Assembly: GCA_025927765.1 (NCBI GenBank)
Contig: JAICKU010000011.1
Coordinates: 1 to 64,000 of the forward strand
From: Burkholderiales bacterium
GTDB lineage: Bacteria > Pseudomonadota > Gammaproteobacteria > Burkholderiales > Casimicrobiaceae
Direction of reading: 5' to 3'
DNA: 64,000 nucleotides
In this document: one piece after another, positions 17,117 through 38,922 of the stretch
Layout: each line of letters starts with the position of its first letter
How positions within the stretch are numbered: the stretch's first letter is position 1
The notes under the pieces: generated by a model
Database searches by the model: none
Told to the model about the DNA's origin: nothing
Seen by the model: only the letters and a program-made list of their open reading frames with translations
Made by a program: the position numbers and the translations under genes

Positions 17117-17983
17117 TTATGCTGCGACGTCTGCGTTGCGGCGAGCCCAGAAGGTCACGCGGCGCTCGATCAACGCGAAGATCGCGTACATCGCGACGCC
17201 GAGCACCGCGAGCAGGAACACGCCCGCGAAAACCAGCGGGACGTCGAACGTCGAACTCGCGAGGATCATCATGCTGCCGATGCCGATGTTGGCGGCCACC
17301 GTTTCGGCCACGACGGTCCCGACGAACGCCAGCGACACTGCGATCTTGAGCGAGGCGAAGAAATAGGGCATCGACCGCGGCAGCCCCACGCGGCGGAGCA
17401 CGTCGAGCTTGCTCGCACCGAGTGCGCGCAAGACGTCCTCGAGCTCGGGCTCGGTCGTCGCAAGTCCCGTCGCTACGTTCACCACCACGGGAAACAGGCA
17501 CATGATCGCCGCCGTCAGAATTGCCGGGATCGTGCCGATGCCGAACCAGATCACGAGAATCGGCACGACGGCGATCTTCGGCACGCTGTAGAAGCCGATG
17601 AGCAGCGGATACGTGACGCGATAGACGAAGCGTGACAGGCCGACACAGGCGCCAATCGCGGCACCCACGAGTACGCCGAGCGCAAAGCCGACGATCGTCG
17701 TATAGAGCGTTTGAATCGCGTTGGGCAGGATCGCCGGCCACTTGGCGATCAGCACGCCCAGGAACTCGCTTGGCTTCGGCAAAATGAATACGGGCACGTT
17801 GAACACCCGGCAGACAATCTCCCAAACGACGAAGAACAGCACGATCGCGAGCGCCGGGAACACCTTGTCGGGGGCGGCGAGCTCGCGAAGACTTTTTGCG
17901 ATCCGTCCGCGCGTGCTGCCCGACCGTGCGCGCGCGTCCATCGTCGTGCGGCTGACCGTATCAAGCTCGTCTACCGTTCGCAT
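17117..17983 (-). CDS. ABC transporter permease (SsuC/TauC type)
   Basis: A 288-residue inner-membrane permease with about six hydrophobic segments and the EAA-type loop LEDVLRALGASKLDVLRRVGLP. It belongs to the nitrate/sulfonate/taurine-type (NMT1) importers. It forms an operon with an ATPase (17992) and a periplasmic binding protein (18842), all minus strand with gaps under 10 bp. Upstream in the same direction lie a LOG-family enzyme, an HbpS-like protein and the ring-opening amidohydrolase, so the likely cargo is a small organic ring compound or a precursor rather than a sulfonate. The cargo assignment is inference. Confidence 0.88.
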   Translation of the reverse strand: MRTVDELDTVSRTTMDARARSGSTRGRIAKSLRELAAPDKVFPALAIVLFFVVWEIVCRVFNVPVFILPKPSEFLGVLIAKWPAILPNAIQTLYTTIVGFALGVLVGAAIGACVGLSRFVYRVTYPLLIGFYSVPKIAVVPILVIWFGIGTIPAILTAAIMCLFPVVVNVATGLATTEPELEDVLRALGASKLDVLRRVGLPRSMPYFFASLKIAVSLAFVGTVVAETVAANIGIGSMMILASSTFDVPLVFAGVFLLAVLGVAMYAIFALIERRVTFWARRNADVAA

Positions 17984-17991
17984 CGGAAGCC

Positions 17992-18837
17992 CTATACGCC
18001 GCGATCGTGGGAGATGTGACTGCGCAGCTCGTGAACGAGCTGCGAAGCCGTATCGGTGAAGAGATCATCGAGCGTGCGCGGCCGCCGAATGTCGACGCGA
18101 TGCGACGTGAGCACGCGCCCAGGGCGCGCGCTCATCACGTGCACGGTGTCGGCGAGGAATACCGCCTCGCGCAGATCGTGCGTCACGAGGATGACGGTCG
18201 GATGGCGCTCCATCCAGAGCTTCTGCAGGACCTGCCACAGGTCCTCGCGCGTGAACGCGTCGAGCGCGCCGAACGGCTCGTCGAGCAGAAGCAGCCGCGG
18301 GTCGTGGATCAGCGCGCGGCAAAGCGAGGCGCGCTGCAGCATCCCGCCCGACAGCTCCCACGGATACTTGTCGGCGAAGTGGGCGAGTCCCACTTCCGCG
18401 AGCAGGCCGCGCGCCATCTCGCGGTATTCCTCCTTCTTCGCCCGGAACTGGCTGCGATGCGGCTCGACGATCTGCAACGGCATCAGCACGTTGTCGATCG
18501 TGCGGAGCCAGGGCAGCATCGTCGGGTTCTGGAACGCCATGCCGACGATCTTGATCGGCTTGACGACCGCGCTGCCCCCGACCAGCACCTCGCCCGACGA
18601 CGGCCGTCGCAAGCCGGACGCGAGCTTCAAGAGCGATGACTTGCCGCACCCGCTGGGACCGACGATCGCGACGAATTCGCCGCGCCGCAGAGTCATGTTC
18701 GTCTCGTCGAGCGCGAGCGTCGAGCTGTCGTCGCCGACCTGGTAATTGAGCCGGACGTTCTGGACGTCGACGAACACGTCGTCGGCGTCCCGGTCGCCGG
18801 GCGCCGCCGCGACGGCCGTACCGATTCCGTTCGTCAT
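17992..18837 (-). CDS. ABC transporter ATP-binding protein (SsuB/TauB type)
   Basis: A 281-residue ATPase with Walker A GPSGCGKSSLLKLASGL (about 60), signature LSGGMLQRASLCRAL (about 162), Walker B LLLLDEPFGALDA and switch His VTHDLREAVFLAD. It energises the neighbouring SsuC-type permease. The start follows the binding-protein gene by 4 bp. The N-terminus has a short Ala/Asp-rich extension before the ABC domain, as in many TauB/SsuB relatives. Confidence 0.9.
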   Translation of the reverse strand: MTNGIGTAVAAAPGDRDADDVFVDVQNVRLNYQVGDDSSTLALDETNMTLRRGEFVAIVGPSGCGKSSLLKLASGLRRPSSGEVLVGGSAVVKPIKIVGMAFQNPTMLPWLRTIDNVLMPLQIVEPHRSQFRAKKEEYREMARGLLAEVGLAHFADKYPWELSGGMLQRASLCRALIHDPRLLLLDEPFGALDAFTREDLWQVLQKLWMERHPTVILVTHDLREAVFLADTVHVMSARPGRVLTSHRVDIRRPRTLDDLFTDTASQLVHELRSHISHDRGV

Positions 18838-18841
18838 CGGA

Positions 18842-19891
18842 TCATTCCGGCTTGAGCTCGTGGATGTTGCGTAGATCGCGTGCGGGCAGGAACTCGCGCG
18901 TGAACACGTCCTGCCCCGCGGGCGTGCGCTTCAAATCGTAGGCCTCGACGACGATGCCGATGCCCTTCTTCAAGTGCGCGTCGTCGACGTCGCCGATGCC
19001 GATGCGCTGCGATTCGGGCGAGAACATCTCGACGTTCACCGTGGCGATCAGGTTCTCGAGCTCGATCTTGCGGTCGAGCAGCGGCTGGCGCTTGAGCGCC
19101 GCGTCCACCCCCATGCCGGGATTGGCGAGCACGTCCTGAAAGCCCTTCGCGATCGCCCGAACGAACCCCCTGACCGCCTCGGGATGCTGCTGGATGAATT
19201 CGCGCGACACGATGATCGCGTTGCTGTAGAGGTCGAGTCCGTAGTTGCTGTACTTCATGATGTTCACGTGCTCGCCCGGGTTCGGGTAGATCTTGCGGAG
19301 GCTGAACCAGACGGTATTGATGTAGCCCGACACCGCGTCGACTTCCCCACGCACGAGCATCTGCTCACGCAGGCTCGGCTGCATATGCTTCCACTTCACC
19401 TTGCTCGCGTCGATGCCGGCGGCCTTCGCAAACGCCGGGAAGAGCTTGAACGGCGCGTCGTCCACCGGTGCGCCGAGCGTCTTGCCTTCGAGCTGCTTGG
19501 GCGACGTGATGTTCTTGTCCTTCATCGAGTAGATCGAGTAAGGCGAATTGCCGTACAGCATGAAAACCGCCTTCGGCGAGTCGTCCGGATGCTGAGCCGC
19601 GAAGACCGTCAGCGCGCTCATGTCGCCGAACCCGATGTCGTACGCCTTGCTCGCGACGCGCGTCACGGCGGCACCGGATCCTTCGCCCTGGTCCATCTGG
19701 ACATCGAGGCCCTCGGCCTTGAAGTAGCCCTTGTCCTGCGCGACGAAGAACCACGCCTGCGGGCCCTGGTACTTCCAGTTCAGCACGAAGCGGATCTTGA
19801 CCGGCTCCGCGCCGTACGCGGTGCAGGCGACCGACATCACGGCCAACGTCGCCGCGATGGTACGTAGAAAGGCGCGTATTGACATGGTCAT
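18842..19891 (-). CDS. ABC transporter substrate-binding protein (NMT1/THI5-like)
   Basis: A 349-residue periplasmic protein with a cleavable signal (FLRTIAATLAVMSVACTAYGA) followed by the NMT1/THI5-like pattern IRFVLNWKYQGPQAWFFVA, DQGEGSGAAVTRVASKAYDIGFGD. This family (SsuA, ThiY, RutR-less pyrimidine importers) often binds pyrimidine-like or aromatic small molecules. It is paralogous to the orphan binding protein at 36386 in the same island. It leads directly into the ATPase and permease genes. A sequence AAGGAGGAGGATGAC precedes the start on the coding strand, a strong ribosome site. Confidence 0.9.
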   Translation of the reverse strand: MTMSIRAFLRTIAATLAVMSVACTAYGAEPVKIRFVLNWKYQGPQAWFFVAQDKGYFKAEGLDVQMDQGEGSGAAVTRVASKAYDIGFGDMSALTVFAAQHPDDSPKAVFMLYGNSPYSIYSMKDKNITSPKQLEGKTLGAPVDDAPFKLFPAFAKAAGIDASKVKWKHMQPSLREQMLVRGEVDAVSGYINTVWFSLRKIYPNPGEHVNIMKYSNYGLDLYSNAIIVSREFIQQHPEAVRGFVRAIAKGFQDVLANPGMGVDAALKRQPLLDRKIELENLIATVNVEMFSPESQRIGIGDVDDAHLKKGIGIVVEAYDLKRTPAGQDVFTREFLPARDLRNIHELKPE

Positions 19892-19928: not shown

Positions 19929-20495
19929 TCACATCCACTTCGATGCAGTCACGGGCGCGAACGCCTCGAACGCATCGAGCAGCCGGTCGGGATCGGTGTC
20001 GGCGACGATCATCGACCGATGCTGCGGCGGCAAAAAGCCTTCGGCGATCATCGTGTCGATGAAGCCGAGGAGCCCGCCGAAAAAACCGTCGACGTTGAGC
20101 AGTCCTAGCGGCTTCTCGTGACCGTCGAACTGCGCATCGACCCACATCTCGAAAAGCTCCTCGAGCGTGCCGAGGCCGCCTGGCATCGCAATGAACGCGT
20201 CGGCGAGCTCCGCCATCCGGCGCTTGCGCAGCGACCGCGTGTCGACGACGTCCGCACGTGTCAGTTGCGCGTACCGCTGGCCCTTGTCGACGAGCGAACG
20301 CGGGATGACGCCATGAACGACACCACCGCCTTCGACGACCGCATCGGCGACGATTTTCATCAGGCCCTTGCCGGTGCCGCCGAAAACGAGGTCGATCCCG
20401 CGCGCCGCGAGCGCGCGGCCGAGCGAGCGCGCGCCCTCGCCGTAGCGCGGCGAGCGGCCCTGGTTCGATCCGCAGAAGACGGCGATCCGGTTCAT
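19929..20495 (-). CDS. LOG family protein (TIGR00730), nucleotide phosphoribohydrolase type
   Basis: A 188-residue LOG-family Rossmann protein. It has the nucleotide motif AVFCGSNQGRSPRYGEGARSL at the N-terminus, VFGGTGKGLMKIVADAV and the catalytic PGGLGTLEELFEMW (PGGxGTxxE). Family members hydrolyse nucleoside 5'-monophosphates to free base and ribose 5-phosphate (cytokinin activation in plants; nucleotide turnover in bacteria). In this operon, beside the ring-opening amidohydrolase, a role in releasing a base from a nucleotide is plausible, but the family is also widespread as a housekeeping enzyme. Confidence 0.88.
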   Translation of the reverse strand: MNRIAVFCGSNQGRSPRYGEGARSLGRALAARGIDLVFGGTGKGLMKIVADAVVEGGGVVHGVIPRSLVDKGQRYAQLTRADVVDTRSLRKRRMAELADAFIAMPGGLGTLEELFEMWVDAQFDGHEKPLGLLNVDGFFGGLLGFIDTMIAEGFLPPQHRSMIVADTDPDRLLDAFEAFAPVTASKWM

Positions 20496-20562: not shown

Positions 20563-20985
20563 TCAGCCGAACGTCACGGTGCCCTCGATCGCGGCGAGGC
20601 CGGCCTTCGCCACTTCGAGATCTTCCTCGCCGGTTTGCGAGCCCACGCCGATGCCGCCGATTGTCATCCCGTCGACGATGATCGGCAAACCGCCCTTCAG
20701 GTTCACGAGTTGCCCGGAGGTCGCGTGCGCGAGTCGAAATTCGAGCTCGCCCTGGATGCCGCCGGTGGGCGCGCGGCTCGAAGCGGCCGTCGAGGCCTTG
20801 CGAATCGCCGATTCGATGCTGAGCCGCTTGCCGCCGTCCATGCGGGTGAACGCGAGAAGATGACCGCCCTCGTCGACGACGGCGATGCATTGCGGCTTTT
20901 TCATCTCGACAGCCTTGCGAACGGCCGCCTCGATGATCTTCATGGCGCCCGCCTGCGTGAGGCGAAGATGTTGTTCGACGTGCAT
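20563..20985 (-). CDS. heme-binding protein-like (GlcG/HbpS family)
   Basis: A 140-residue GlcG/HbpS-fold protein. Visible family features are the N-terminal helix LTQAGAMKIIEAAVRKAVEM, CIAVVDEGGHLLAFTRMDGG and the Gly-rich GGLPIIVDGMTIGGIGVGS. I chose the ATG at 20985, preceded by GAGGAGACCGATCG, over the ATG at 21009. Members are often encoded in catabolic operons (glycolate, diols) and some bind haem, but the biochemical role is generally unclear. It lies 26 bp after the ring-opening amidohydrolase gene, in the same operon. Confidence 0.85.
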   Translation of the reverse strand: MHVEQHLRLTQAGAMKIIEAAVRKAVEMKKPQCIAVVDEGGHLLAFTRMDGGKRLSIESAIRKASTAASSRAPTGGIQGELEFRLAHATSGQLVNLKGGLPIIVDGMTIGGIGVGSQTGEEDLEVAKAGLAAIEGTVTFG

Positions 20986-21011
20986 CGATCGGTCTCCTCG
21001 CGCGCTCATGT

Positions 21012-22118
21012 TCACGCTTCGGCGATGACGCAGATCAGGTTCGCGCCGGGCGGCCCCTGATGCTCGGCACCGGCCGACGCGAGGAACATCGTGTCGCCGA
21101 CGATGGTCGCGACGGCCGCATGCGCCACCGCTTTGGCCTGAATGCCGGAGAAGGGGGCGAGGAAGTCGGAGTGCAGCACGTGCCTGCGCCCGCGCACGCT
21201 CGTCACGTAATCGGCGCCCGCATTCACGAGCACGGCCGCGATGCGCGGGCGATCGCGCTCGCTCACCGTGCCGTCCTGCAGCTCGAGTCCCGCGCGCGCG
21301 AACGCCTCGCGTGCGCCGCGAATGTCGAGCTGATCCTGCATCACGCCATGCGCTGCGACGAGCTTGCCCGGCGCACCCTCGACGTTGCCGATGACGAGCA
21401 CGCGGCACGCGACCTGCTCGCCGCCCGCCGACGTCGACGCGACCGACGAATACACGGATTTGTCGACGTTGATCATCGCGTCGGAAAGCCGCTCGCGCGC
21501 GACTTCGCCGGTGGCCACCGCCACGCCGAGTGCGCACGCGCCCTTCGCGAGCGACGATGCGACGACCGGGTTCGTATTGGCGACCTTGCGCCCGCGCTGC
21601 CCGGCGTCAGCCACGCGCGCGGGCGTCATCGCCGGGCATTTGATCTCCACGCATTCGATTTGCGAGGGATCGCTGATGCCGGCGTCCTTCATCGCGGCGC
21701 GCACCGCGTCCGCGACGAGGTCGACCTGCACCATCGTGCCGTATTCCTCGGGCAGCAGCTGTCGGCTGCTCGCAACGCCGAGCGCGAGGCGTTTCTGCGT
21801 GCCGCCCGCCGCAGCGGGCTTGCGGATGAACAGGATGATGTGGGGGCACATGATGCCGCCCACGCCGCCAATCATCATCATCGGGATCCGTTCGAACACC
21901 TCCCGCCGGGAGATGCCGAGCCGCTCGGAGAGCAGGACTTCCATCGCGAGCGTCGCGTAGCCGCGCGCGTACGGATCGCCTTCGGTCTGCTCCATGATGG
22001 CGACGACATGCTTCGGATCGATTTCCTTGCGGTCGAACAGCGCGGCCACGCCCGAGACGTCGCCCGGCCCGCTCATCGGCACGCGCACCACTACCGCTTC
22101 GAATCCCTCACTCGACAC
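21012..22118 (-). CDS. ring-opening amidohydrolase (cyanuric acid hydrolase/barbiturase family), divergent
   Basis: A 368-residue protein of the AtzD/barbiturase family, enzymes that open cyanuric acid or barbituric acid rings with a Ser-Lys dyad on a pseudo-threefold fold. The middle site is intact: Lys in CVEIKCPAMTPARV and Ser in SSVASTSAGGEQ, the dyad regarded as catalytic. The other sites have decayed: the first Lys (GKTEGNG in AtzD) is Gln in IMEQTEGD and its Ser (SGGTEGVLSPH) is Ile in IGGVGGIMCPH; the third Lys (AKAEA) is Asn in VNAGAD, while SAGAEHQGPPGA keeps its Ser. This suggests a less symmetrical substrate. GTG start, GAGGAG five bases upstream. It is the first gene of an operon driven by a clear promoter at 22148-22176. 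Confidence 0.88.
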   Translation of the reverse strand: MSSEGFEAVVVRVPMSGPGDVSGVAALFDRKEIDPKHVVAIMEQTEGDPYARGYATLAMEVLLSERLGISRREVFERIPMMMIGGVGGIMCPHIILFIRKPAAAGGTQKRLALGVASSRQLLPEEYGTMVQVDLVADAVRAAMKDAGISDPSQIECVEIKCPAMTPARVADAGQRGRKVANTNPVVASSLAKGACALGVAVATGEVARERLSDAMINVDKSVYSSVASTSAGGEQVACRVLVIGNVEGAPGKLVAAHGVMQDQLDIRGAREAFARAGLELQDGTVSERDRPRIAAVLVNAGADYVTSVRGRRHVLHSDFLAPFSGIQAKAVAHAAVATIVGDTMFLASAGAEHQGPPGANLICVIAEA

Positions 22119-22147: not shown

Positions 22148-22189
22148 AGTAAAACGACTATCGCTCCTGATGTCAAGTTATTTCGAAAT
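22148..22189 (-). promoter_or_regulatory. promoter with upstream ATTTCGAAAT palindrome (ring-opening amidohydrolase operon)
   Basis: On the minus strand a perfect -35 TTGACA (22176-22171), a 17-bp spacer and TTTACT (22153-22148) as -10 predict a start near 22141, about 23 nt before the GTG of the amidohydrolase. Three bases upstream of the -35 lies the palindrome ATTTCGAAAT (22180-22189) in the context GGAATTTCGAAATA. The same geometry recurs at 28853-28894. The palindrome centre is near -44, a position that fits an activator or a repressor site. Confidence 0.75.
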
Positions 22190-22321: not shown

Positions 22322-22786
22322 TCAGCCCCGCTTGTGCCGCCAGCACTCGAACGGCGCCTCGCCGTCGACGTGCATCGGCACGTGCTCGATCCGGATCGAT
22401 TGCCGCGACACGGGCTTGGCCATTTCCGCGTAGATCGCAGCCGTCGACAGCCCGTATTGCTCGGCGTCCTCGTTCGAGTACGCGTAGTAGACCTCCGAGA
22501 TGCCGGTCAGGTGGATCGCCGACAGGCACATGGGACAGGGGTGAGCGCTGGCGTACATCACGCACCGCTCGAGGCGCGGGCTCTTCAGCCGGACCGCGGC
22601 GGCGCGGATCGACTGCATTTCCGCGTGCGTCGAGGGGTCGTGGGTGGCGAGCACTTCGTTGACGCCCGTCGCCAGCACCTCGTCGTCCCTGACGAGGACG
22701 GCGCCGAACGGGCGCCCGCCGCGTTCGAGCACGTTCTCCCGTGCGAGGCGGATGGCGGTCGCAAGATGATCGCGGTTCATGATCAT
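22322..22786 (-). CDS. nucleoside/nucleobase deaminase (GuaD-like, CDA fold)
   Basis: A 154-residue cytidine-deaminase-fold enzyme most like small bacterial guanine deaminases. The zinc site is complete: STHAEMQSI (HAE: one ligand plus the catalytic Glu) and AHPCPMC (two Cys ligands); the usual CEPCPMC has Ala-His in place of Cys-Glu. The C-terminal FECWRHKRG is longer than the FxAW tail of GuaD. It would deaminate a purine, pyrimidine or triazine amino group; related GuaD-type enzymes have been shown to accept ammeline. It is the last gene of the minus-strand import/deamination operon. Confidence 0.85.
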   Translation of the reverse strand: MIMNRDHLATAIRLARENVLERGGRPFGAVLVRDDEVLATGVNEVLATHDPSTHAEMQSIRAAAVRLKSPRLERCVMYASAHPCPMCLSAIHLTGISEVYYAYSNEDAEQYGLSTAAIYAEMAKPVSRQSIRIEHVPMHVDGEAPFECWRHKRG

Positions 22787-22815: not shown

Positions 22816-24033
22816 TCAGTGGCCGACGTATTTTCCGTCGCGCGCGACGAGCTTTCCGGCCTTGAACACGTGGCTTCGCGCCGGACGGGCGACGACCGCC
22901 TCTGCGACGTTGCGTGCAGGAACGACGATCAGGTCCGCCGGTGCCCCCGCGTGCACGCCGTAGTCGTCGACACGCAGCGCGCGCGCCGCGCTGTGCGTCG
23001 CGAGATCGAGCGCGACGGCGAGTTCCTCGTCGGTGAGGAAGCCCGAGCCGTAGGCGATCAGCATCGCGCGCTCGAGCATGTCGGCGTCGCCGTAGGGCCA
23101 CCAGGCGTCGCGGATGTTGTCGTTGCCCGCGATGACGGTCACCCCCGCCTCGCGTAGCTGCATGACCGACGGATAGGCGTGGTTGCCTGGCGCGTTGGTG
23201 AGAATCGACACGCCGGCGTCGGCGAGCTTCTCCGCGGTGCGTTGAGCATCTGCCTCGGGCACCATGCCGAGCGCGTACGCATGGCTCACGTTGACGCTGC
23301 CCGCCATGCCGACGGCCTTGGTGCGCCGTGCGATCTCGTCGAGTTCGGCCAGCCCTTCGCCCGCGGCATCGTGCAGGTGGATGTCGATGCCTGCGGCGTG
23401 GCGCTGCGCGAGTCCGAACACGGCGTCGAGCTGGCCGTCGACGTCGTGATCGACGCCCGACGGGTCGAGCCCACCCACGAGGTCCGCGCCTTCACGCAGC
23501 GCCGCATCCATCAGCTCGAGCGTCCCGGGGCACGACACGAGGCCGCGCTGCGGGAACGCCACGATCTCGATCGATGCCGCGTGCTTGTAGCGTTCGCGCG
23601 CAGCCAGCACGGCGTGCAGGCTCTTCAAGCCGGTGACGGGATCGATGTCGACATGCGAGCGCATCCGGGTCGTGCCATGCGCAACCGCGAGTTCGATCAG
23701 GGCGGCGGCGCGCTGCTCGACGGGCGCCGCGCGACCGAGGATTTCCGCTTCGATGGCGACGCGCTCCATCACGCTGAATGTCGCGCTCGTGCCGCGGCGG
23801 TGCGATTGCCACGCATCGCCGACCAGCGACTTGTCGAGATGCACGTGCGCGTCGATCAGCCCGGGCAGCACCAGCGACCCGCCGAGCGACATCGCGTCGC
23901 CCCCAGCGGGAAGCGCAGCGTCGATCGCCGCGATGCGGCCCGCGGTGATGCCGATCGAGACCGTGCTGCCGTCCGCGAGCAGCGCATCCGCCAGCACGGT
24001 ATCGAAGCGGTGACCCGCCTTCGCGTTCATCAC
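22816..24033 (-). CDS. amidohydrolase of the cytosine deaminase (CodA/AtzC) type
   Basis: A 405-residue metal-dependent hydrolase of the cytosine deaminase-like group. Metal-site residues are visible: HVHLDK (HxH after beta-1, about 63), IDIHLHDAAGEG (about 218), VSHAYALG (about 253) and GNDNIRDAWWPYGD (catalytic Asp, about 303). The HVHLDK and GNDNIRD motifs match CodA and AtzC (N-isopropylammelide hydrolase) rather than dihydroorotase-type enzymes. It probably hydrolyses an exocyclic amine from a pyrimidine or triazine ring. No signal peptide, so it is cytoplasmic. It sits between the BMP transporter genes and the GuaD-like gene in one operon. Confidence 0.87.
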   Translation of the reverse strand: MMNAKAGHRFDTVLADALLADGSTVSIGITAGRIAAIDAALPAGGDAMSLGGSLVLPGLIDAHVHLDKSLVGDAWQSHRRGTSATFSVMERVAIEAEILGRAAPVEQRAAALIELAVAHGTTRMRSHVDIDPVTGLKSLHAVLAARERYKHAASIEIVAFPQRGLVSCPGTLELMDAALREGADLVGGLDPSGVDHDVDGQLDAVFGLAQRHAAGIDIHLHDAAGEGLAELDEIARRTKAVGMAGSVNVSHAYALGMVPEADAQRTAEKLADAGVSILTNAPGNHAYPSVMQLREAGVTVIAGNDNIRDAWWPYGDADMLERAMLIAYGSGFLTDEELAVALDLATHSAARALRVDDYGVHAGAPADLIVVPARNVAEAVVARPARSHVFKAGKLVARDGKYVGH

Positions 24034-24035: not shown

Positions 24036-25136
24036 CTACGACTTAGGAAAGGGTCCGTTGATGCCTTCGACGAGCCAGTTGATGCTGCGGATTTCCTTGT
24101 CAGACAGCGAGCCGCCGGCGGCCACGCGCTGCTTGCCGTCGCGATCCTTGAGCGGGCCGGCGAACACCTTGAGCTTGCCGCTGACGATGTCCTTTTCGCG
24201 CTGCTTGGCGTCCGCGACCACCTCGGCGGGTATCGCGGCGTTGTAGGGGACCATTGCGCAGAATCCACCCTCGCCGAGGCCTCGAAAGCGGTCTTGCGCC
24301 TTCCACGTTCCGGCCAGGGCGTCGCGTGCGGAGTCGATGTACGCGCTGCGCCAATCGAAGATGTCGCCGGTCAGCTGCTTCTTCGGCACGAACTTGGAAA
24401 AGTCGCTGCAGTTGGCGATCGACCACGCGCCACGCTCTTCCGCGGCAACGCCCTGCACCGGCGTGTTCGGGCTGCCCGCAAGCACGTCGGCGCCCTGCGA
24501 AATCAGCGCGTTCACCGCATCCTTCTCCTTTGCGGGGTCGTTCCAGGTATTGATCCAGACGACGTTGCACACCGCCTTCGGATTGACGCTCCGCGCGCCG
24601 AGCATGAAGCCGTTCATTCGCCACACGGTCTGCGGGATGGGAAATGCGCCGACCCAGCCGAGCGTGTTGCTCCTGGTCATCCGGCCGGCGATGACGCCGG
24701 CGACATAGCTCGCCTCGTAGTTGCGCGCTTCGAACGCGCCCATGTTCTTCAGCGTCGTGACCGACGCGCAGCAATCGAAATGGGTGTTGGGTGCGGTGCG
24801 GGCGACCTTCAGCATCGGAGCCATGTGCGAGAACGTGGTTCCGAAGATCAGCTTGTTGCCCTGCGACGCGAGCTCGCGGAACACGCGCTCGGAGTCCTGC
24901 GCCTGCTGCACGTCGGCGACGACCGTCACCTTGACCTTGCCGGGAAATGCGGCCTCCATCGCCTTCCATCCCAACGCGTGCTGCGTTTCCCAGCCGACTT
25001 CGCCGATCGGATATTGATGCACGACGCCCACGTTGAGGACGTCCTGCGCGAACGCATCGAGCGCGCGAGCGCCGAGTGCCGCGATGCCAAGCGACGAAGA
25101 GGCCTTCAGGAAATCACGTCTGTTCACGATACGCAT
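24036..25136 (-). CDS. BMP-family ABC transporter substrate-binding protein
   Basis: A 366-residue periplasmic binding protein of the BMP/PnrA family, which binds nucleosides or nucleobases. Mature-domain signatures include NVGVVHQYPIGEVGWETQHALG and the DVLAGSPNTPVQGVA region. Export is by a Tat-type signal: NRRDFLKASSSLGIAALGARALDAFAQD, with twin arginine and an AFA cleavage site. A lipobox, usual in Firmicute members, is absent. Its stop lies 2 bp from the CodA-like gene, linking uptake with deamination. Confidence 0.9.
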   Translation of the reverse strand: MRIVNRRDFLKASSSLGIAALGARALDAFAQDVLNVGVVHQYPIGEVGWETQHALGWKAMEAAFPGKVKVTVVADVQQAQDSERVFRELASQGNKLIFGTTFSHMAPMLKVARTAPNTHFDCCASVTTLKNMGAFEARNYEASYVAGVIAGRMTRSNTLGWVGAFPIPQTVWRMNGFMLGARSVNPKAVCNVVWINTWNDPAKEKDAVNALISQGADVLAGSPNTPVQGVAAEERGAWSIANCSDFSKFVPKKQLTGDIFDWRSAYIDSARDALAGTWKAQDRFRGLGEGGFCAMVPYNAAIPAEVVADAKQREKDIVSGKLKVFAGPLKDRDGKQRVAAGGSLSDKEIRSINWLVEGINGPFPKS

Positions 25137-25214
25137 GGCTTTCTCCTGCTCTGGGTCATGGTTGCCGATGTCGTTGGCAACGTCGCAACGACGCTCGCCG
25201 CGGACTCGCTTGTT

Positions 25215-26138
25215 TCATACGCCCGGGTGGAACGGCTTGCCGAGTGACACGGGGGCATTGAGGCGGATCATGGCCACATCGCGCGAAATCACCACCAGCA
25301 CCACGATCGTGGCAAGGTAAGGAAGCATCGACATGAACTGCGTGGCAAACGCGACGCCCGCACTTTGCGCGAAATACTGCACGATCGTGATGCCGCCGAA
25401 CAGATAGGCCCCGAGCATCACGCGTGCGGGACGCCACGTCGCGAACACCACCAGCGCGAGCGCGATCCATCCGCGGCCCGCGACCATGCCTTCGAGCCAC
25501 AGCGGGGCGTAGACGAGCGAAAGATAGGCGCCGCCGATCCCGGCCATCGCGCCGCCGAACAGCGTCGCCAGATAGCGGATGCGGATGACCGGATAGCCCA
25601 CTGCGTGCGCCGATGCGGGCGATTCGCCGACGGCGCGCAGCACGAGGCCCGCGCGGCTGCGGAACAGGAACCAGCTGACGCCTGCGAACAGCAGCCACGA
25701 CACGTAGACCAGCGGGTGCAGCGAATGCAGCAGCGGGCTCAGCAGCGGAATGTCGATCGGCAGCGAGAGACCGGCGTCCGCGCGGTTCTCGAGCGTCACT
25801 CCCACGAAGCCCTTGCCGATGAACGCGCTGACACCCGCGCCGAAGATCGCGAGCGCGAGACCCGCCGCCACCTGGTTGGCCTGCAGCGTCAAGGTCGCGA
25901 AGGCGAACAGCAGCGCCATCAGCGCGCCCGCGACGCCTGCGACGGCCACGCCGAGCCACAGATCCCCCGTCGAGCGCATCGTGATGAATGCGACGATCGC
26001 ACCGACGAGCATCATGCCTTCGACGCCGAGATTGAGAACCCCGGATTTCTCGGCGACCAGTTCTCCGAGTGCCGCGAAAATCAGCGGCGTGCCGGCGCCG
26101 AGCGTCGCGGCGATGACCGACACGACCATGTCCATCAC
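25215..26138 (-). CDS. nucleoside/nucleobase ABC transporter permease (YufQ/BmpC type)
   Basis: A 307-residue permease with eight or more hydrophobic segments. The start region ATLGAGTPLIFAALGELVAEKSGVLNLGVEGMM is the family signature of the second permease of BMP-type importers. It overlaps the upstream permease gene by 4 bp. The gap of 78 bp to the binding-protein gene contains no obvious terminator. Confidence 0.92.
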   Translation of the reverse strand: MMDMVVSVIAATLGAGTPLIFAALGELVAEKSGVLNLGVEGMMLVGAIVAFITMRSTGDLWLGVAVAGVAGALMALLFAFATLTLQANQVAAGLALAIFGAGVSAFIGKGFVGVTLENRADAGLSLPIDIPLLSPLLHSLHPLVYVSWLLFAGVSWFLFRSRAGLVLRAVGESPASAHAVGYPVIRIRYLATLFGGAMAGIGGAYLSLVYAPLWLEGMVAGRGWIALALVVFATWRPARVMLGAYLFGGITIVQYFAQSAGVAFATQFMSMLPYLATIVVLVVISRDVAMIRLNAPVSLGKPFHPGV

Positions 26139-27226
26139 AGCGCCGCCCTGGGCTGATCGAGCGGGACGGCGCGGATGACCCGCACACGGAAGTTGACCAG
26201 CACGTCGGCGCCGAGCAGGAAGAACAGCAGCGCGCCCTGAAACAGCGCAGCCGCGGCGGCCGGCAATCCCATGCTGATCTGCGCGGAGTCGCCGCCGAGG
26301 TAAAGCAGCGACATCAGCAAGCCGGCGAACACGATGCCCACCGGATCGAGGCGCCCGACGAACGCAACGATGATGGCCGTGAAGCCGTAGCCCGGCGATA
26401 TCGTCGGCAACAATTGCCCGAGCGGCCCCGCGACCTCGCCGACGCCCGCGAGTCCTGCCGCAGCGCCGCCGGCGAGCATGCCGACCCAGACGGTGCGCTT
26501 CTCGCTGAATCCCGCATAGCGCGCCGCGGCGCTCGACAGCCCGACGACGCGCGTCTTGTAACCGAGAAAGCTTTTCTCGAGGAATACCCAGCTCACGACG
26601 ACCGCCGCCAACGTCAACAGCACGCTGGCATTGAGCCGCGTGTTGGCGATCAGGATCGGAAACAGCGCGCCGTCGGCGAAGAGCGCCGATTGCGGTGTGT
26701 TGAACCCCTGGGGATCGCGCCAGGGGCCGAACACCAGCCAGTTGACCAGCAACTGCGCAACGTACGTGAGCATCAGGCTGACGAGGATCTCGTTCGCGTT
26801 GAAGCGCGTGCGCAGGAACGCGGGAATCGCCGCCCAGGCCATGCCGCCGAGGATGCCGGCGACGATCATCGCGGCGAGCAGCAGCGGACTGTCGGCGAAC
26901 GCGGGATCGAGCGCCACCCAGCCGGCTGCGATGGCACCGAGGGTCAGCTGTCCCTCGGCGCCGATGTTCCAGATGTTGCTGCGAAATCCCACCGCCAGCC
27001 CGAGCGCGATCAGCACCAGCGGCGACGCCTTGAGGAACAGCTCGGCCAGGCCGCCGACGCTGTTGATCGGCGCGATGAAAAACGCGTAGAAGGCCGCGGG
27101 CGGATTCTTGCCGAGCGCGGCGAACAGGATGAATCCCATCACGAGCGTCAGGGCCGCGGCAATGAGCGGTGATGCATAGCGCATCGCGCGCGATTGCAGC
27201 GCGCGGGGCTCCAGTCTAAGTTGCAT
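26135..27226 (-). CDS. nucleoside/nucleobase ABC transporter permease (YufP/BmpB type)
   Basis: A 363-residue polytopic permease, the longer partner of the pair, with the typical GFRSNIWNIGAEGQLTLGAIAAGW motif (about 80-103) and SPGYGFTAIIVAFVGRLDPVG (about 287-307). It overlaps the ATPase gene by 11 bp upstream and the second permease by 4 bp downstream, so the whole import operon is tightly coupled. Confidence 0.92.
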   Translation of the reverse strand: MQLRLEPRALQSRAMRYASPLIAAALTLVMGFILFAALGKNPPAAFYAFFIAPINSVGGLAELFLKASPLVLIALGLAVGFRSNIWNIGAEGQLTLGAIAAGWVALDPAFADSPLLLAAMIVAGILGGMAWAAIPAFLRTRFNANEILVSLMLTYVAQLLVNWLVFGPWRDPQGFNTPQSALFADGALFPILIANTRLNASVLLTLAAVVVSWVFLEKSFLGYKTRVVGLSSAAARYAGFSEKRTVWVGMLAGGAAAGLAGVGEVAGPLGQLLPTISPGYGFTAIIVAFVGRLDPVGIVFAGLLMSLLYLGGDSAQISMGLPAAAAALFQGALLFFLLGADVLVNFRVRVIRAVPLDQPRAAL

Positions 27227-28787
27227 GCAGCGACTCGACGAGCGGCGCGCTGACCGGGCCGGCCACCTGGTCGGGCCACAGACCGCTCATCCACACGCCG
27301 ATTTCCTCGACGTCGGTTTCGGTGACGCGCTTTGCATGCGACAGGCGGCCGTTCGCCATCACCGCGATGCGATCACAGATCTCGAACAGTTCCTCGAGAT
27401 CCTCGGACACCACGAGCACGGCGGCGCCGGCGTTGCGAAGTTCGATGAGCGATTGGCGGATCGACACCGCCGCCCCGACATCGACGCCCCACGTCGGCTG
27501 CGATACGACGAGCACCTTCGGATGCTGCATCACCTCCCGACCGACGATGAATTTCTGCAGGTTGCCGCCCGACAGGCTCTTCGCTTCGGCATGCGGGCCC
27601 GCGCACTTCACATCGAAATCATCGATGCAACGCCGAGCGAAGTCGGTGATCGCGTCGGATCGCAGCATGCCGAGCGCAACCATCCGCTGGGCATGCGCCG
27701 TCAGCAGCGCATTGTCGGCAAGCGACATCGACGGGATCGCGGCGCGACCCAGCCGCTCTTCGGGAATGAAGCAAAGCCCGAGCCGTCGACGTGCGGCGGC
27801 ACCGAGGCGTGCCACCGCTATCCCGCACACATGAATGGCATCGTCATCGGGCGTGCTGCGTTCGCCGGACAGCGCCGCGAGCAGCTCCTGCTGTCCATTG
27901 CCGGAGATGCCGGCGATGCCGAGGATTTCGCCGCTTCGCACGGCCAGCCGGATGTCGGCCAAATCGGTGCCGAATGGATCGTCGCAGACAAGGGAAAGCC
28001 CGTTGACGACGAGGCGTTCCTCACCGTCGCCCGCGGCCTCGGGATGATTGCATTTGGGCAAGTCGCGGCCGATCATCAGGCGCGCCATGCTGGCGGCGGT
28101 CTCGCGCTGCGGCTCGCACGTTCCGGTCACCTTGGCCGCGCGGAGCACCGTTGCACGATGACAAAGCGCCTTGATCTCGTCGAGCTTGTGGCTGATGTAG
28201 AGAACGCTGCAGCCTTCACCCGCCACCTGCCGCAACGTCTCGAACAGTCGCGTTGCGGCCTGCGGCGTCAGCACGGACGTCGGCTCGTCCATGATGAGCA
28301 GCTGCAGATCCTGCAGCAGGCAGCGAATGATTTCCACGCGCTGGCGCTCGCCGATGGAGAGCGAATGGACGAGCGCCCGAGGATCGACGGTCAGGCCGTA
28401 GCGTTCCGACACTCCCCCGATCCGCGCGGCGACGTCGTCGAGACCGGGGTTGCCTGGCAACACCAGCGCGACGTTTTCGGCGACGGTCAGCGTTTCGAAC
28501 AGCGAGAAGTGCTGGAAGACCATGCCGATGCCGAGCTCGCGCGCATGCGCAGGACTGGCGACGTCGATCCGCGCACCATGCCAGAGGATCTCGCCCGCGT
28601 CCGGCTTGACGACGCCGTAGATGATCTTCATGAGCGTGCTCTTGCCGGCGCCGTTTTCACCCAGGACAGCGTGAATCTCGCCCGGCATGACGCGAAGATC
28701 GATGCCGTCGTTGGCGACGACCGCGGGATAGGACTTGCAGATGCCCCGCAATTCCAGTCGCGCGGGATTGTCGTTACGCGCGGCCAC
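27216..28787 (-). CDS. nucleoside/nucleobase ABC transporter ATPase (duplicated domain)
   Basis: A 523-residue ATPase with two ABC domains, as in RbsA/YufO-type importers. The first has Walker A GENGAGKSTLMKIIYG, signature LSIGERQRVEIIRCLL and Walker B LLIMDEPTSVLTP. The second has a degenerate Walker A (GISGNGQQELLAALSG) and signature LSGGNLQKFIVGREV, which is normal for this family. The GTG start at 28787 follows a 59-nt leader from the promoter at 28853-28881. It is the first gene of the operon ATPase-permease-permease-BMP protein-CodA-like-GuaD-like. Confidence 0.92.
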   Translation of the reverse strand: MAARNDNPARLELRGICKSYPAVVANDGIDLRVMPGEIHAVLGENGAGKSTLMKIIYGVVKPDAGEILWHGARIDVASPAHARELGIGMVFQHFSLFETLTVAENVALVLPGNPGLDDVAARIGGVSERYGLTVDPRALVHSLSIGERQRVEIIRCLLQDLQLLIMDEPTSVLTPQAATRLFETLRQVAGEGCSVLYISHKLDEIKALCHRATVLRAAKVTGTCEPQRETAASMARLMIGRDLPKCNHPEAAGDGEERLVVNGLSLVCDDPFGTDLADIRLAVRSGEILGIAGISGNGQQELLAALSGERSTPDDDAIHVCGIAVARLGAAARRRLGLCFIPEERLGRAAIPSMSLADNALLTAHAQRMVALGMLRSDAITDFARRCIDDFDVKCAGPHAEAKSLSGGNLQKFIVGREVMQHPKVLVVSQPTWGVDVGAAVSIRQSLIELRNAGAAVLVVSEDLEELFEICDRIAVMANGRLSHAKRVTETDVEEIGVWMSGLWPDQVAGPVSAPLVESLHAT

Positions 28788-28852: not shown

Positions 28853-28894
28853 AGTAAACTGGCTATCACGCACGTTGTCAAGATATTTCGAAAT
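28853..28894 (-). promoter_or_regulatory. promoter with upstream ATTTCGAAAT palindrome (BMP importer operon)
   Basis: On the minus strand, -35 TTGACA (28881-28876), a 17-bp spacer and -10 TTTACT (28858-28853) predict a start near 28846. The palindrome ATTTCGAAAT (28885-28894) lies three bases upstream of the -35, as at 22148-22189. Even the spacer shares a GATAG core with that promoter. This repeated architecture argues for one regulator acting on both operons. Confidence 0.75.
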
Positions 28895-29002: not shown

Positions 29003-29034
29003 ATTTCGAAATTCCTGCCTGTATGCGATATTAT
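29003..29034 (+). promoter_or_regulatory. candidate promoter with ATTTCGAAAT palindrome (split fdrA / ylbE operon)
   Basis: The 331-bp divergent gap 28788-29118 holds a second copy of the motif here, GATATTTCGAAATTCC (16 bp identical to the copy at 28883-28898). Downstream on the plus strand is TATTAT (29029-29034), a good -10, which would give a start near 29041 and place the palindrome over the -35 region. No separate TTGACA is present, so the site may be an activator site replacing the -35, or a repressor site. A GC-rich self-complementary CCGGCTCGAGCCGG lies in between. Confidence 0.55.
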
Positions 29035-29118: not shown

Positions 29119-29289
29119 ATGGAAACGGACAAGCTGCTGCAATCGGAGGTGCGCGTGATCAATATCGGACTCGCCGAGTTCGCCCACGACCTCGAGCGGT
29201 GCGACGTGCCCGTGGTCCACGTCGAATGGTCGCCTCCCGCCGTCGGCGATCCCCGGATCGCGGCGCTGCTCGCCAAGCTCGGCGGCTGA
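29119..29289 (+). CDS. small protein equivalent to the detached C-terminal domain of FdrA
   Basis: A 56-residue ORF, too short for the track, starting at ATG 29119 after GGAGAGCACGTC and ending 7 bp before the DUF1116 gene. Its sequence has the pattern VRVINIGLAEFAHDL...PVVHVEWSP...GDPRIAALLAKL. From memory of E. coli FdrA (about 555 residues), the last ~50 residues of that protein read VAVINIGLRSFALEL...PVVHYQWSPVAGG, a clear match. The FdrA encoded at 30612 here is 502 residues and ends before this domain. So FdrA is split, with the C-terminal piece encoded first, ahead of the DUF1116 gene. It probably re-associates with the main FdrA chain. Confidence 0.78.
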   Translation: METDKLLQSEVRVINIGLAEFAHDLERCDVPVVHVEWSPPAVGDPRIAALLAKLGG

Positions 29290-29296: not shown

Positions 29297-30559
29297 ATGA
29301 CGAGCGCGTCCCCCGACACCATCGCCGGCGCCAACCGCGAGGCGCTGCGGCGCATCCTCGCGAGCGATCCCGTCCTCGTGGACGTTCAGCTCGCTCGCGA
29401 CGCGATCCCGCGGCTTCCCGATCGTACGATCCTGCACGCAGGCCCGCCGATCGGCTGGGACCGCATGTGCGGGCCGATGCGGGGCGCGGTCGCCGGTGCG
29501 ATCGTGTTCGAAGGATGGGCGGACGACCTCGATGCTGCGGCGCGGCTCGCGGCATCGGGCGAGATCCGCTTCGAGCCGAATCACCATTACGACGGCGTGG
29601 GGCCGATGACGGGCATCACGACGCGCAACATGGCGGTGCTGGTCGTCGAGAACCGCGCGTTCGGCAACCGGGCCTTCTGCACGGTGAACGAAGGCATCGG
29701 CAACGTGATGCGCTTCGGCGGCAACGATCGCGAGGTCATCGAGCGTCTCCAGTGGATCGCGTCCGTCGCCGGCCCCGCGCTCGGAGCGGCGATTCGCCAC
29801 CGCAAGGGCATTCCGCTCAAGAGCCTCATCGCGCGCGGCCTGTCGATGGGCGACGAAATGCACATGCGCAACGCCGCGTGCTCGAGCCTGATCCTGCGCG
29901 AACTCGCCGGCGACCTCGCGGACACGGCGCGCTCCGACCTGAGCCGCATCCTGCGGTTCATCGCCGGCAACGACATGTTCTTCCTGAATGTCGCGATGGC
30001 GATGGCGAAGTCGATCGCTGCCGCGGCGCACGACATCCCGCACTCGACGGTCGTCACGACGATGGCTCGCAATGGCACCGATTTCGGCATTCGCGTGAGC
30101 GGCACCGGCGATCACTGGTTCACCGGCCCCGCGCAGATGGCGCGCGGACTGCTGTTCGCCGGCTTTTGCGAAGCCGACGGCAACGTGGACATCGGCGATT
30201 CGTGCATCACCGAAACGGTCGGGCTCGGCGGCTTCGCGATGGCGGCGTCGCCGGCCGTCGTCGGCTTCATCGGCGCGGGAACGCTCTCCGACGCGATCGC
30301 GTACACGCACCGCATGCGCGAGATCACCGTCGGCACGAACGCCGACTGGGCGCTGCCCACGCTCGAGATGGCGGGCGTGCCCACCGGCATCGACATCCGC
30401 AAGGTGCTGGCCACCGGTGTGCTGCCGGTCATCAACACCGCGATCGCCAACCGCTTGCCAGGGCGCGGCCAGGTGGGCGCCGGCGTCGTTCACCCGCCGC
30501 TGACCTGTTTCGAGCAGGCGCTGATCAGGTTTGCCGAAATGAATGGAGCCGACGCATGA
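29297..30559 (+). CDS. DUF1116 protein, YlbE/AllG-type carbamoyltransferase subunit (copy 1)
   Basis: A 420-residue DUF1116 protein homologous to E. coli YlbE. Conserved stretches include HAGPPIGWDRMCGPMRGAV, PNHHYDGVGPMTG, RAFCTVNEGIGNVMRFGGND, ARGLSMGDEMHMRN and ARNGTDFGIRVSGTGD. In E. coli YlbE acts with FdrA and YlbF and the three have been reported to form oxamate carbamoyltransferase, which phosphorolyses oxalurate to oxamate and carbamoyl phosphate. The gene is flanked by both parts of split FdrA, so it is likely that complex's partner. A second DUF1116 copy lies at 34227. Cytoplasmic; no signal peptide. Confidence 0.88.
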   Translation: MTSASPDTIAGANREALRRILASDPVLVDVQLARDAIPRLPDRTILHAGPPIGWDRMCGPMRGAVAGAIVFEGWADDLDAAARLAASGEIRFEPNHHYDGVGPMTGITTRNMAVLVVENRAFGNRAFCTVNEGIGNVMRFGGNDREVIERLQWIASVAGPALGAAIRHRKGIPLKSLIARGLSMGDEMHMRNAACSSLILRELAGDLADTARSDLSRILRFIAGNDMFFLNVAMAMAKSIAAAAHDIPHSTVVTTMARNGTDFGIRVSGTGDHWFTGPAQMARGLLFAGFCEADGNVDIGDSCITETVGLGGFAMAASPAVVGFIGAGTLSDAIAYTHRMREITVGTNADWALPTLEMAGVPTGIDIRKVLATGVLPVINTAIANRLPGRGQVGAGVVHPPLTCFEQALIRFAEMNGADA

Positions 30560-30611
30560 GCGCGCAGGGCCGCGAATCGATTCCGCAGTGCAACGCCCGG
30601 AGGGGAGTCCA

Positions 30612-32120
30612 ATGACCACCGTCGTCAACCAGGTTCGCCGCGCGTTCTATCGCGACTCGGTCGCCCTCATGCGCATCTCGCGCGCGGTTGCCGCGCTTCC
30701 GGGCGTCGGCGACGCGGCGCTCATGATCGGCTCGACGACCAACAAGAAGCTGATGCAGGACGCCGGGTTGCTCAATGCCGACGGCGAAGGGGCGTCGCCG
30801 AACGACCTCGTCTTCGCCGTCACGGCCGACACTCTGGAGAATGCAAACTCGGCGCTCGCCGAGGCTGCGCGCCTGCTCGACGAGCCGAGCACGTCCGAGC
30901 AAGGCGACGCGCGCTGGCACCCGAAATCGCTCGACACCGCGCTCTCGCAGTTGCCGGGCGCCAACATTGCGCTGATTTCGGTGCCCGGCGAATTCGCAGC
31001 GGCCGAGGCGCGGCGCGCGCTGAACCGCGGCCTGCACGTGATGATGTTCAGCGACAACGTGCCCGTCGCCGACGAGGTCGCGCTGAAGCAGGACGCGCGT
31101 GCCCGCGGACTGCTGATGATGGGCCCCGATTGCGGCACGTCGATCATCGGCGGCGTCCCCCTCGCGTTCGCGAACGTGATCGCGCGCGGCGACATCGGCA
31201 TCGTCGGGGCGTCGGGAACCGGCTTGCAGGAAGTGTCGACGTTGATCGCCCGCCACGGCGGTGGCGTGTCGCACGCGATCGGCGTGGGCGGCCGCGACCT
31301 CAAGCAGGCGGTCGGCGGCATCACGACGCTGATGGCGTTCGACGCGCTCGACCGCGATCCGGGCACGCGACAGATCGTGCTGATCTCGAAACCGCCCGAG
31401 GCGTCGGTGGCGAACGCCGTGCTCGAGCGGATCGGCCAAAGCGACAAGAAAGTGTCGATCTGCTTCATCGGGACGGGCGAGATGCGCGTGCCGCCGAATG
31501 CCGCGCTCTTCTCCGACCTGCGATCGACCGCCGAAAGCGCGCTCGGGGGCAAGCGCATCGGATGGCAAGGCACGGCGCCGTCGCCGGCGGAGCTCGCGCG
31601 CCGCGTCGGCCGAGGCCGCACGCGCGTGCGCGGACTCTTCTCCGGAGGCACGATGTGCGCCGAAGCGCAGGTGTTCTTCGGCCGCGCGGGCGTCGAAGTC
31701 ACGTCGAACGTGCCGATTCCCGGGGTGCGCGAGGCGGACGCCGGTTCGAGGGAGGGCAACGTCCTGCTCGATCTCGGCGACGACGAGTACACGGTCGGCC
31801 GGCCGCATCCGATGATCGACGCGACGCTACGCAATCGCATGCTCGCCGAGACGCTCGCGGACGATCGCACGGCGGTCGTGCTGCTCGACGTCGTCATCGG
31901 CTACGGCGCCCACGCCGATCCCGCGAGCGAACTCGTGTCGGCCTTACCCGACGCGCGAGCGAGGCAGGCGGTCGTGATCACGTCCGTTTGCGGCACCGAG
32001 GACGATCCGCAAAGCTATTCGCGCCAGGCGCGCGTGCTCGAGGATGCGGGTGTCGTCGTCGCGCCGTCGAATGCGCACGCGGCGGAAATCGCGCTCGACG
32101 TGCTGCGCGCGCTCGCCTAG
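30612..32120 (+). CDS. fdrA: FdrA-like protein, main part (acyl-CoA synthetase-like fold)
   Basis: A 502-residue protein with the succinyl-CoA-synthetase-like domains of FdrA. Typical stretches are RAFYRDSVALMRISRAV at the start, ALISVPGEFAAAEARRAL, MMFSDNVPVADEVALK, MGPDCGTSIIGGVPLAFANV, GIVGASGTGLQEVS and LGDDEYTVGRPHPMIDATLRN. It lacks the last ~50 residues of full-length FdrA, which are encoded separately at 29119. The ATG at 30612 follows GGAGGGGAGTCCA. It converges on the DUF2877 gene with only 4 bp between stops. The proposed role is transfer of a carbamoyl group to phosphate as part of an oxamate-carbamoyltransferase-like complex. Confidence 0.88.
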   Translation: MTTVVNQVRRAFYRDSVALMRISRAVAALPGVGDAALMIGSTTNKKLMQDAGLLNADGEGASPNDLVFAVTADTLENANSALAEAARLLDEPSTSEQGDARWHPKSLDTALSQLPGANIALISVPGEFAAAEARRALNRGLHVMMFSDNVPVADEVALKQDARARGLLMMGPDCGTSIIGGVPLAFANVIARGDIGIVGASGTGLQEVSTLIARHGGGVSHAIGVGGRDLKQAVGGITTLMAFDALDRDPGTRQIVLISKPPEASVANAVLERIGQSDKKVSICFIGTGEMRVPPNAALFSDLRSTAESALGGKRIGWQGTAPSPAELARRVGRGRTRVRGLFSGGTMCAEAQVFFGRAGVEVTSNVPIPGVREADAGSREGNVLLDLGDDEYTVGRPHPMIDATLRNRMLAETLADDRTAVVLLDVVIGYGAHADPASELVSALPDARARQAVVITSVCGTEDDPQSYSRQARVLEDAGVVVAPSNAHAAEIALDVLRALA

Positions 32121-33994: not shown

Positions 33995-34099
33995 CGGTGA
34001 TTCCTCGAATCCACCCGCCGCAAGTCGCCGCGCACGCAGTGCGCGCGCGGCGGGGCGCAAGGCGGGTAGATTAAGGCATCGCGCGCGCTTGTGCGAGTT

Positions 34100-34178
34100 T
34101 TTCGAAATTTTTCGACTGTGGCACGATCGACGGTTACTTCGATCTTTATTGCCTGCGCTCGCCGCGCTCCGGTATCAT
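34100..34178. promoter_or_regulatory. divergent regulatory region between arcC and the second ylbE
   Basis: This lies in the 232-bp gap 33995-34226. A TTTCGAAA palindrome inside TTTTTCGAAATTTTTCG (core 34100-34107) is a weaker variant of the motif in the other island promoters. Toward ylbE copy 2, TTGCCT (34149-34154), 18 bp and TATCAT (34173-34178) form a plausible promoter with a start near 34185. Toward arcC the sequence after the palindrome aligns in spacing with the other promoters but the hexamers (TCGCAC, TAATCT) are poor. Confidence 0.45.
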
Positions 34179-37420: not shown

Positions 37421-37438
37421 GCCACGCAGCCGTCGCCA

Positions 37439-38917: not shown

Positions 38918-38922
38918 AGGAC

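Follow-up and report, generated by a model that had tools for sequence, protein, structure and literature searches.

The gene at positions 21012..22118 (minus strand, GTG start) of the window, by which is meant the whole 64,000-nucleotide stretch of DNA analyzed here, encodes a ring-opening amidohydrolase (ROA) of 368 amino acids in which two of the three Ser-Lys dyads of the AtzD/TrzD/barbiturase family are broken. The reading that we favor, at a probability of roughly 0.55, is that this is a functional, neofunctionalized member of the family that acts in a co-regulated carbamoyl-phosphate pathway, with a chemistry, a pathway order, and a substrate class that we infer. More tentatively, the small clade to which it belongs may represent a new ring-opening activity, acting on an unrecognized cyclic ureide at one Ser-Lys-Glu site and feeding an energy-conserving route to ATP via AllF/AllG and carbamate kinase, with the same coupling applying to plasmid-borne TrzD.

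Family membership, fold, and active-site residues

The open reading frame has exactly the bounds 21012-22118 on the minus strand. In profile searches, its product matched the Amido_AtzD_TrzD family over its full length, with 376.5 bits against PF09663 (cut-off 25) and 313.8 bits against TIGR02714 (cut-off 153.1), and it scored 326 bits against NF052395, the cyanuric acid amidohydrolase equivalog, which is below the cut-off of 360. The best relatives in the PDB are cyanuric acid hydrolases, at 38-42% identity. An AlphaFold (AF2) model with a pLDDT of 93.7 matches the cyanuric acid hydrolase of Moorella (6bup) with a TM score of 0.93 and an rmsd of 1.6 (Foldseek), and the Toblerone fold is therefore predicted to be unchanged despite the dyad losses.

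Active-site residues were mapped by phmmer alignment to AtzD (4bvq), TrzD (5t13), and the cyanuric acid hydrolases of Moorella (6bum) and Azorhizobium (4nq3). A second, family-wide alignment of about 80 sequences gave the same assignments, and alignment error as the origin of the dyad losses was rejected because the two independent alignments agree. In dyad 1, Lys42 of AtzD is replaced by Gln44 (MEQTEGD versus MGKTEGN) and Ser85 by Ile83 (IGGVGG versus SGGTEG); in dyad 3, Lys296 is replaced by Asn299 (LVNAGAD versus FAKAEAS), and the serine is retained as Ser348 (ASAGAEHQGP). Dyad 2 is intact, with Lys160 and Ser230 equivalent to Lys162 and Ser233 of AtzD. The typical arrangement of three Ser-Lys dyads is thus absent from ROA (Q44, I83, N299), and the preliminary description, which had reported two broken dyads from the motifs EQTEGD, IGGVGG, and VNAGAD, had read those motifs correctly.

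The losses extend beyond the dyads themselves. In dyads 1 and 3, the partner Glu has likewise given way to Gly (Gly87 and Gly301), four residues (GCVN) are deleted from the loop after TEG, and the partner of dyad 2 is retained as Glu234. Of the arginines, Arg52 is intact, that equivalent to Moorella Arg328 is Lys329 in the ROA clade, and that of domain 2 is Lys192 in the four close clade members, such that cationic residues occupy all three carbonyl sites of ROA (Arg52, Lys192, and Lys329). Within the clade, K160, S230, E234, and Arg52 are invariant, and dyad 2 with its Glu, as expected of the family, is therefore present. Other Lys or Ser residues filling the vacated positions had been named in advance as the result that would tell against dyad loss; as judged by fold match and alignment only, none was found at the sequence level, the family alignment containing no new clade-invariant Lys or Ser except Lys329, which is an Arg replacement.

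A distinct clade under purifying selection

Family members were gathered from three sources, namely some 1,860 genomes, a species-level contig collection that was scanned, and plasmids. The Gln/Ile/Asn pattern was found in exactly five homologues: the window ROA, those of a Hyphomonadaceae MAG (L045, 81% identical to the window ROA), an alphaproteobacterial MAG (L046, 73%), and Rhodoplanes serenus (L047, 79%), and the most divergent member, L002 (genome G240, about 52%). All five carry Q/I/N, whereas 65 of 65 other typical members carry K/S/K at the positions of Lys42, Ser85, and Lys296, a pattern in the aligned sequences that is not due to chance. The five are monophyletic (SH-aLRT 100), the stem leading to them, at 1.19 changes per column, is about as long as that of the barbiturases, and the phylogeny with characterized members that had been proposed earlier sets them apart from the barbiturase (5hwe) clade, with support of 100 for each; the tree is a quick one, which leaves the deeper placement of the clade uncertain. 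For pairs of the close members, dN/dS comes to about 0.12-0.22. A pseudogene, or drift, is ruled out by the clade-fixed pattern, this purifying selection, and the intact predicted fold.

In the host family, 63 other genomes, among them 21 from the host genus, lack the ROA gene, an absence which suggests that the host gained it horizontally. Base composition is flat, with no foreign signature over the ROA cluster, and the plasmid collection contained no close orthologue (best match 43.7%).

The reverse of the ROA case is found in one genus (f13/g16), where the dyad-2 Ser, a residue termed "absolutely conserved" in earlier papers, is replaced by Phe (MVFSGAEL) in homologues L017-L024, L029, and L030, together with the fragment L025. 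Dyads 1 and 3 are retained in these homologues, which make up a clade of their own at the end of a very long branch and adjoin a gene for a TRZ/ATZ-type amidohydrolase.

Implications for catalysis and specificity

Opinions differ on the identity of the catalytic Ser-Lys pair in Toblerone-fold enzymes. In AtzD, the catalytic role was assigned to Ser85 (PMC3758960), whereas the domain-2 Ser was taken as catalytic in cyanuric acid hydrolases (PMC4051656, PMC6557486), with nucleophilic attack at the B site of Ser231-Lys161 and Arg52 according to Shi et al. 2019 (PMC6557486). The dyad residues were reported to be conserved in all 68 family members by Peat 2013; in 119 sequences, absolute conservation was limited to the domain-2 dyad with its Glu (PMC4051656). 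Because the ROA clade keeps precisely S230, K160, E234, and R52, the set identified as catalytic by Shi et al. and in the 2014 Azorhizobium study, a catalytic Ser230 is the simplest reading, and the earlier view of dyad 2 as intact and catalytic is upheld to the extent that Ser230-Lys160 is, from sequence conservation, likely to be the catalytic dyad. Conservation of dyad 2 only was already apparent in earlier papers, and so ROA represents an extreme variant and not a new principle. It does, though, provide a natural test of which pair matters: a natural enzyme with the domain-2 set only would show dyad 1 to be dispensable, once its substrate is identified.

For the Azorhizobium enzyme acting on cyanuric acid, replacement of any of the Lys by Ala costs about 10^4-fold and that of any of the Ser by Ala 10^7-10^8-fold (PMC4051656). 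Since the sites altered in the clade are those other than S230, K160, E234, and R52, cyanuric acid is unlikely to be the main substrate of ROA. The shift of substrate relative to the cyanuric acid hydrolases that had been proposed from the dyad losses is likely, given these mutant costs, the score below the NF052395 cut-off, and the absence from the host of an allophanate hydrolase over cut-off. The accompanying suggestion of a ring with fewer carbonyls, or of a substituted ring, is not one that we adopt, because Arg or Lys at all three carbonyl sites would still admit a three-carbonyl ring of another shape. Activity of the clade is itself not assured, as a class V member of the family, which also has altered specificity residues, had no detected activity on cyanuric or barbituric acid (PMC3758960).

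Gene neighborhood

The genes around ROA offer the best clue to its function. Just downstream of ROA lies a gene for an HbpS/GlcG-like protein (20563..21009, minus strand; PF03928) that is also its neighbor in L045, L046, and L047. The next gene of the operon encodes a LOG-type lysine-decarboxylase-fold protein (19929..20495, minus strand; PF03641) and is conserved in L045 and L047. Downstream of the operon are the permease, ATPase, and binding protein of an ABC transporter (17117..19891, minus strand), putatively of the NMT1/THI5 type; by synteny, its orthologues lie near the L046 ROA and also accompany several ordinary ROAs.

Between ROA and allG1-allF is a BMP-type ABC transporter operon, the last two genes of which encode deaminases. 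It encodes a BMP/PnrA-type nucleobase/nucleoside transporter (24036..28787, minus strand), consisting of a binding protein, two permeases, and an ATPase (PF02608, PF02653 twice, and PF00005), followed by an AtzC/cytosine-deaminase-like amidohydrolase of the PRK05985 group (22816..24033, minus strand; NF004636 525 bits, cut-off 408), which matches PDB entry 6nbo with E=1e-86 and is 35% identical to E. coli YahJ. The last gene encodes a small, Zn-dependent, guanine-deaminase-like protein (22322..22786, minus strand; PF00383), for which the best PDB match is guanine deaminase 1wkq (E=5e-29).

Beyond this operon, the subunit families of oxamate carbamoyltransferase and a carbamate kinase are found together at 29297-35477, such that the complete module of AllF, AllG, AllH, and carbamate kinase is present. 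It is made up of AllG1 (29297..30559, plus strand; PF06545 E=1.8e-87), which is 72-81% identical to the copies next to ROA in L045, L046, and L047; AllF (FdrA) (30543..32120, plus strand; NF004760 485 bits, cut-off 433); AllH (32125..33012, minus strand; PF11392); the carbamate kinase (33032..34060, minus strand), with 75% identity to an AA_kinase-family protein (PF00696) of L047 and 44% to E. coli YahI; and a second AllG paralogue, AllG2 (34227..35477, plus strand), with 72% identity to AllG2 of L047 (PF06545) and 54% to E. coli AllG, the GTG start of which is approximate, the listed open reading frame running from 33744. AllF and AllG1 are about equally close to AllF/AllG and YahF/YahG of E. 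coli (40-49%), and specificity for oxalurate is therefore not to be assumed.

A small open reading frame of 56 amino acids (29119..29289, plus strand) is homologous to a segment that elsewhere is fused to FdrA/AllF or AllG, with tblastn matches to the C terminus of E. coli fdrA (allF), the N terminus of YahG, and orthologous loci. In yahG and the plasmid copies, this segment forms the N terminus of AllG, and it appears to be a short unit that shifts from one subunit to another.

The gene at 35536..36306 (plus strand), conserved near ROA in L045, L046, and L047, presumably encodes a regulator of the GntR family. It is followed by genes for an NMT1-type binding protein, a TRZ/ATZ-type amidohydrolase, and an FmdA/AmdA-like amidase (36314..39891, plus strand), and the same set adjoins the ordinary ROAs of L121 and L129. 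A recurrent set of two NMT1-type binding proteins and a TRZ/ATZ-type amidohydrolase, sometimes with an FmdA-like amidase, is seen beside ordinary ROAs (L103, L104, L118, L121, and L129).

A shared palindrome and a conserved gene association

The operator-like palindrome ATTTCGAAAT occurs at 4 sites in the 4.0 Mb host genome, three of which are the promoters of ROA (22180..22189), the transporter/deaminase operon (28885..28894), and allG1-allF (29003..29012); at the first two, TTGACA follows directly. The fourth copy, on another contig (G000 C111), lies inside a coding region and was thus dismissed as a regulon member, being probably due to chance. A weaker copy of the motif, TTTTTCGAAATTT, is located between carbamate kinase/allH and allG2 (34100..34108, plus strand). 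Near-copies are present at the ROA/allG1 junctions of L045, L046, and L047, that of L046 being single and not significant alone, and also near allG2/carbamate kinase of L047. The occurrence of ATTTCGAAAT at three promoters and almost nowhere else is strong evidence, at the level of sequence, that ROA, the transporter/deaminase operon, and allG1-allF constitute one regulon. The putative GntR regulator (35536..36306) is a candidate for the protein that binds this operator.

The association with AllF/AllG is repeated in other genomes. In L045, L046, and L047, ROA is divergent from allG1-allF and is followed by the HbpS-like gene. Among 41 ROA contexts, AllF/AllG lie near ROA in four of the five clade members, as against 1 of 36 others (Fisher test, p=2.4e-4, a value that serves only as a guide because shared phylogeny keeps the genomes from being independent samples). 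The parts of the sequence read around the ROA of L002 contain no AllF/AllG, and so the link to this pathway may be confined to the four close members. The locus of this most divergent member (L048, G240:C71) contains genes for a luciferase-like monooxygenase, an amidase, and a TctC-type binding protein, and with neighbors so different from AllF/AllG, it may serve another pathway. A barbiturase-type ROA, L107 (G010:C97), is located within 6 kb of AllF and AllG, an arrangement that would fit phosphorolysis of ureidomalonate.

Proposed pathway

In the proposed mechanism, Ser230, activated by Lys160 with the help of Glu234, would attack the ring carbonyl that Arg52 holds in the B site, and hydrolysis of the resulting acyl-enzyme would release an acylurea or carbamoyl compound with its ring opened. 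The remaining two thirds of the pocket, without Ser-Lys-Glu, would have been rebuilt for a cyclic ureide other than cyanuric acid, the features involved being Gln44, Ile83, the loop deletion, Asn299, Lys192, Lys329, Gly325, and Ala349. The pathway would begin with the BMP-type ABC importer and continue through one or two deaminases to ring opening by ROA. AllF/AllG, with AllH/AllG2, would then phosphorolyze the acylurea to an amide and carbamoyl phosphate, from which carbamate kinase would make ATP.

In E. coli, AllFGH catalyze the conversion of oxalurate and phosphate to oxamate and carbamoyl phosphate (PMC11326118). An acylurea product, as this chemistry would require, points to imide-type rings, and by analogy barbiturate-like or parabanate-like imides are our leading guesses for the substrate (parabanate itself undergoes hydrolysis at neutral pH; PMC5703782); the ring opened by ROA probably differs from the cyanuric acid and barbiturate of the classical enzymes. 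Profile searches of the host found no allantoinase and no allophanate hydrolase (AtzF) over cut-off. Allantoin as a source of oxalurate, and cyanuric acid degraded via allophanate, were rejected on these grounds, both the oxalurate-from-allantoin and the carboxybiuret-via-allophanate routes being poorly supported. A pterin/lumazine pathway, of the kind that a pterin-deaminase cluster would encode, was set aside, having found no support in the literature searched.

Alternative explanations

The first alternative, that ROA continues to hydrolyze cyanuric acid (or barbiturate), the missing groups being compensated or dispensable, is one that we consider unlikely. It draws on the same predicted fold, on nearest PDB relatives that are cyanuric acid hydrolases (38-42%), on a very similar TrzD operon (AtzC-like, BMP-ABC, and AllF/AllG/carbamate kinase), and on the Lys that barbiturase also has at AtzD position 325. 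However, hydrolysis of cyanuric acid depends heavily on each of the three Lys and three Ser residues, and the clade has no new invariant Lys or Ser. The specificity residues are also at odds with both substrates. At AtzD positions 195/321/325/345/346, ROA has K192, G325, K329, A349, and G350 (K,G,K,A,G); only Gly346 matches the cyanuric signature of Arg195, Thr321, Arg325, Gly345, and Gly346 (AtzD numbering, PMC3758960), and only Lys325 matches the barbiturase (class VI) signature of Asn195, His321, Lys325, Val345, and Ser/Ala346. For cyanuric acid in particular, the NF052395 score below cut-off and the absence from the host of an allophanate hydrolase over cut-off argue the same way. It is similarly doubtful that catalysis has been lost and that ROA is a binding or regulatory protein: although two of the three Ser-Lys pairs are gone and a class V member is without detected activity, Ser230-Lys160-Glu234 and Arg52 are clade-invariant, and the gene is co-regulated with those of catabolic enzymes.

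The purine-type BMP transporter and the guanine-deaminase-like protein under the ATTTCGAAAT operator, together with the change from Ser to Ile on one face of the pocket, might instead indicate a fused pyrimidinedione (xanthine- or lumazine-like) that is produced by the two deaminases and has its second ring accommodated on the Ile83 side. This is improbable, as the deaminases are not conserved beside ROA in other clade members, AllF/AllG are known for acylurea and not aryl urea, and members of the family have a small pocket (157 A^3 in the Moorella cyanuric acid hydrolase; PMC6557486). A coincidence of nitrogen-gene islands, with AllFGH serving allantoin as it does in E. coli, is very improbable, given that the host has no allantoinase over cut-off, that the palindrome is common to three promoters and found almost nowhere else in the genome, and that the adjacency is repeated in three other genomes and with TrzD.

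Comparison with known systems

AtzD (4bvq) and the cyanuric acid hydrolases of Moorella and Azorhizobium (6bum and 4nq3) share with ROA the fold, dyad 2, its Glu, and Arg52. They differ from it in dyad 1, the dyad-3 Lys, the Glu partners, the GCVN loop, and two of the three Arg, which in ROA are now Lys. Barbiturase (5hwe) resembles ROA in its Lys at AtzD 325 and in dyad 2, and an acylurea product would suit AllF/AllG, but it belongs to a separate clade, keeps three dyads, and differs at the other specificity residues. Class V, compared by its published description, consists here of AZC_3203 and 5hy0, an entry deposited as "orotic acid hydrolase" that we take to be the Frankia class V protein. 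Its published signature, Gly/Arg/Trp at position 321, Lys/Arg at 325, Gly/Ala at 345, and Gly at 346, mostly fits ROA, but position 195, described as absent from class V, is Lys in ROA, and identity is 31-32%. The AllFGHK and yahEFGIJ operons of E. coli have in common with the window the AllF/AllG/AllH/carbamate kinase module, with YahJ related to the AtzC-like enzyme, but neither contains a ring-opening amidohydrolase.

A very similar gene content is found with TrzD. The sequence of 5t13 is identical over 368 aligned residues to the ROA of two plasmid loci, L091 (Klebsiella plasmid pKqs_SB610_3, 3892-25101) and L092 (Aminobacter SR38 plasmid pSR8, 10588-24676). The plasmid gene order is fdrA-DUF1116-TrzD-carbamate kinase, with an AtzC-like amidohydrolase, a BMP transporter, and DUF2877 (AllH) downstream, and an arrangement of this type recurs, around an ordinary ROA, on a Citrobacter plasmid. 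The gene set is thus like that of ROA (AllF, AllG, a ring-opening amidohydrolase, carbamate kinase, AtzC-like, BMP-ABC, and AllH), as is the fold (TM 0.94); unlike ROA, TrzD has its three dyads intact and an allophanate hydrolase, AtzF, in its Klebsiella cluster, and the two are 42-44% identical. No discussion of the association of TrzD with AllF/AllG/carbamate kinase genes was found in the literature searched. By analogy, the plasmid systems may convert 1-carboxybiuret and phosphate to allophanate and carbamoyl phosphate. By the logic proposed to be common to TrzD and ROA, the opened ring would be an acylurea, its phosphorolysis would give carbamoyl phosphate, and carbamate kinase would form ATP from the latter. 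The link between ROA, AllF/AllG, and carbamate kinase suggests that ring opening, including that by TrzD, can lead into an ATP-yielding route.
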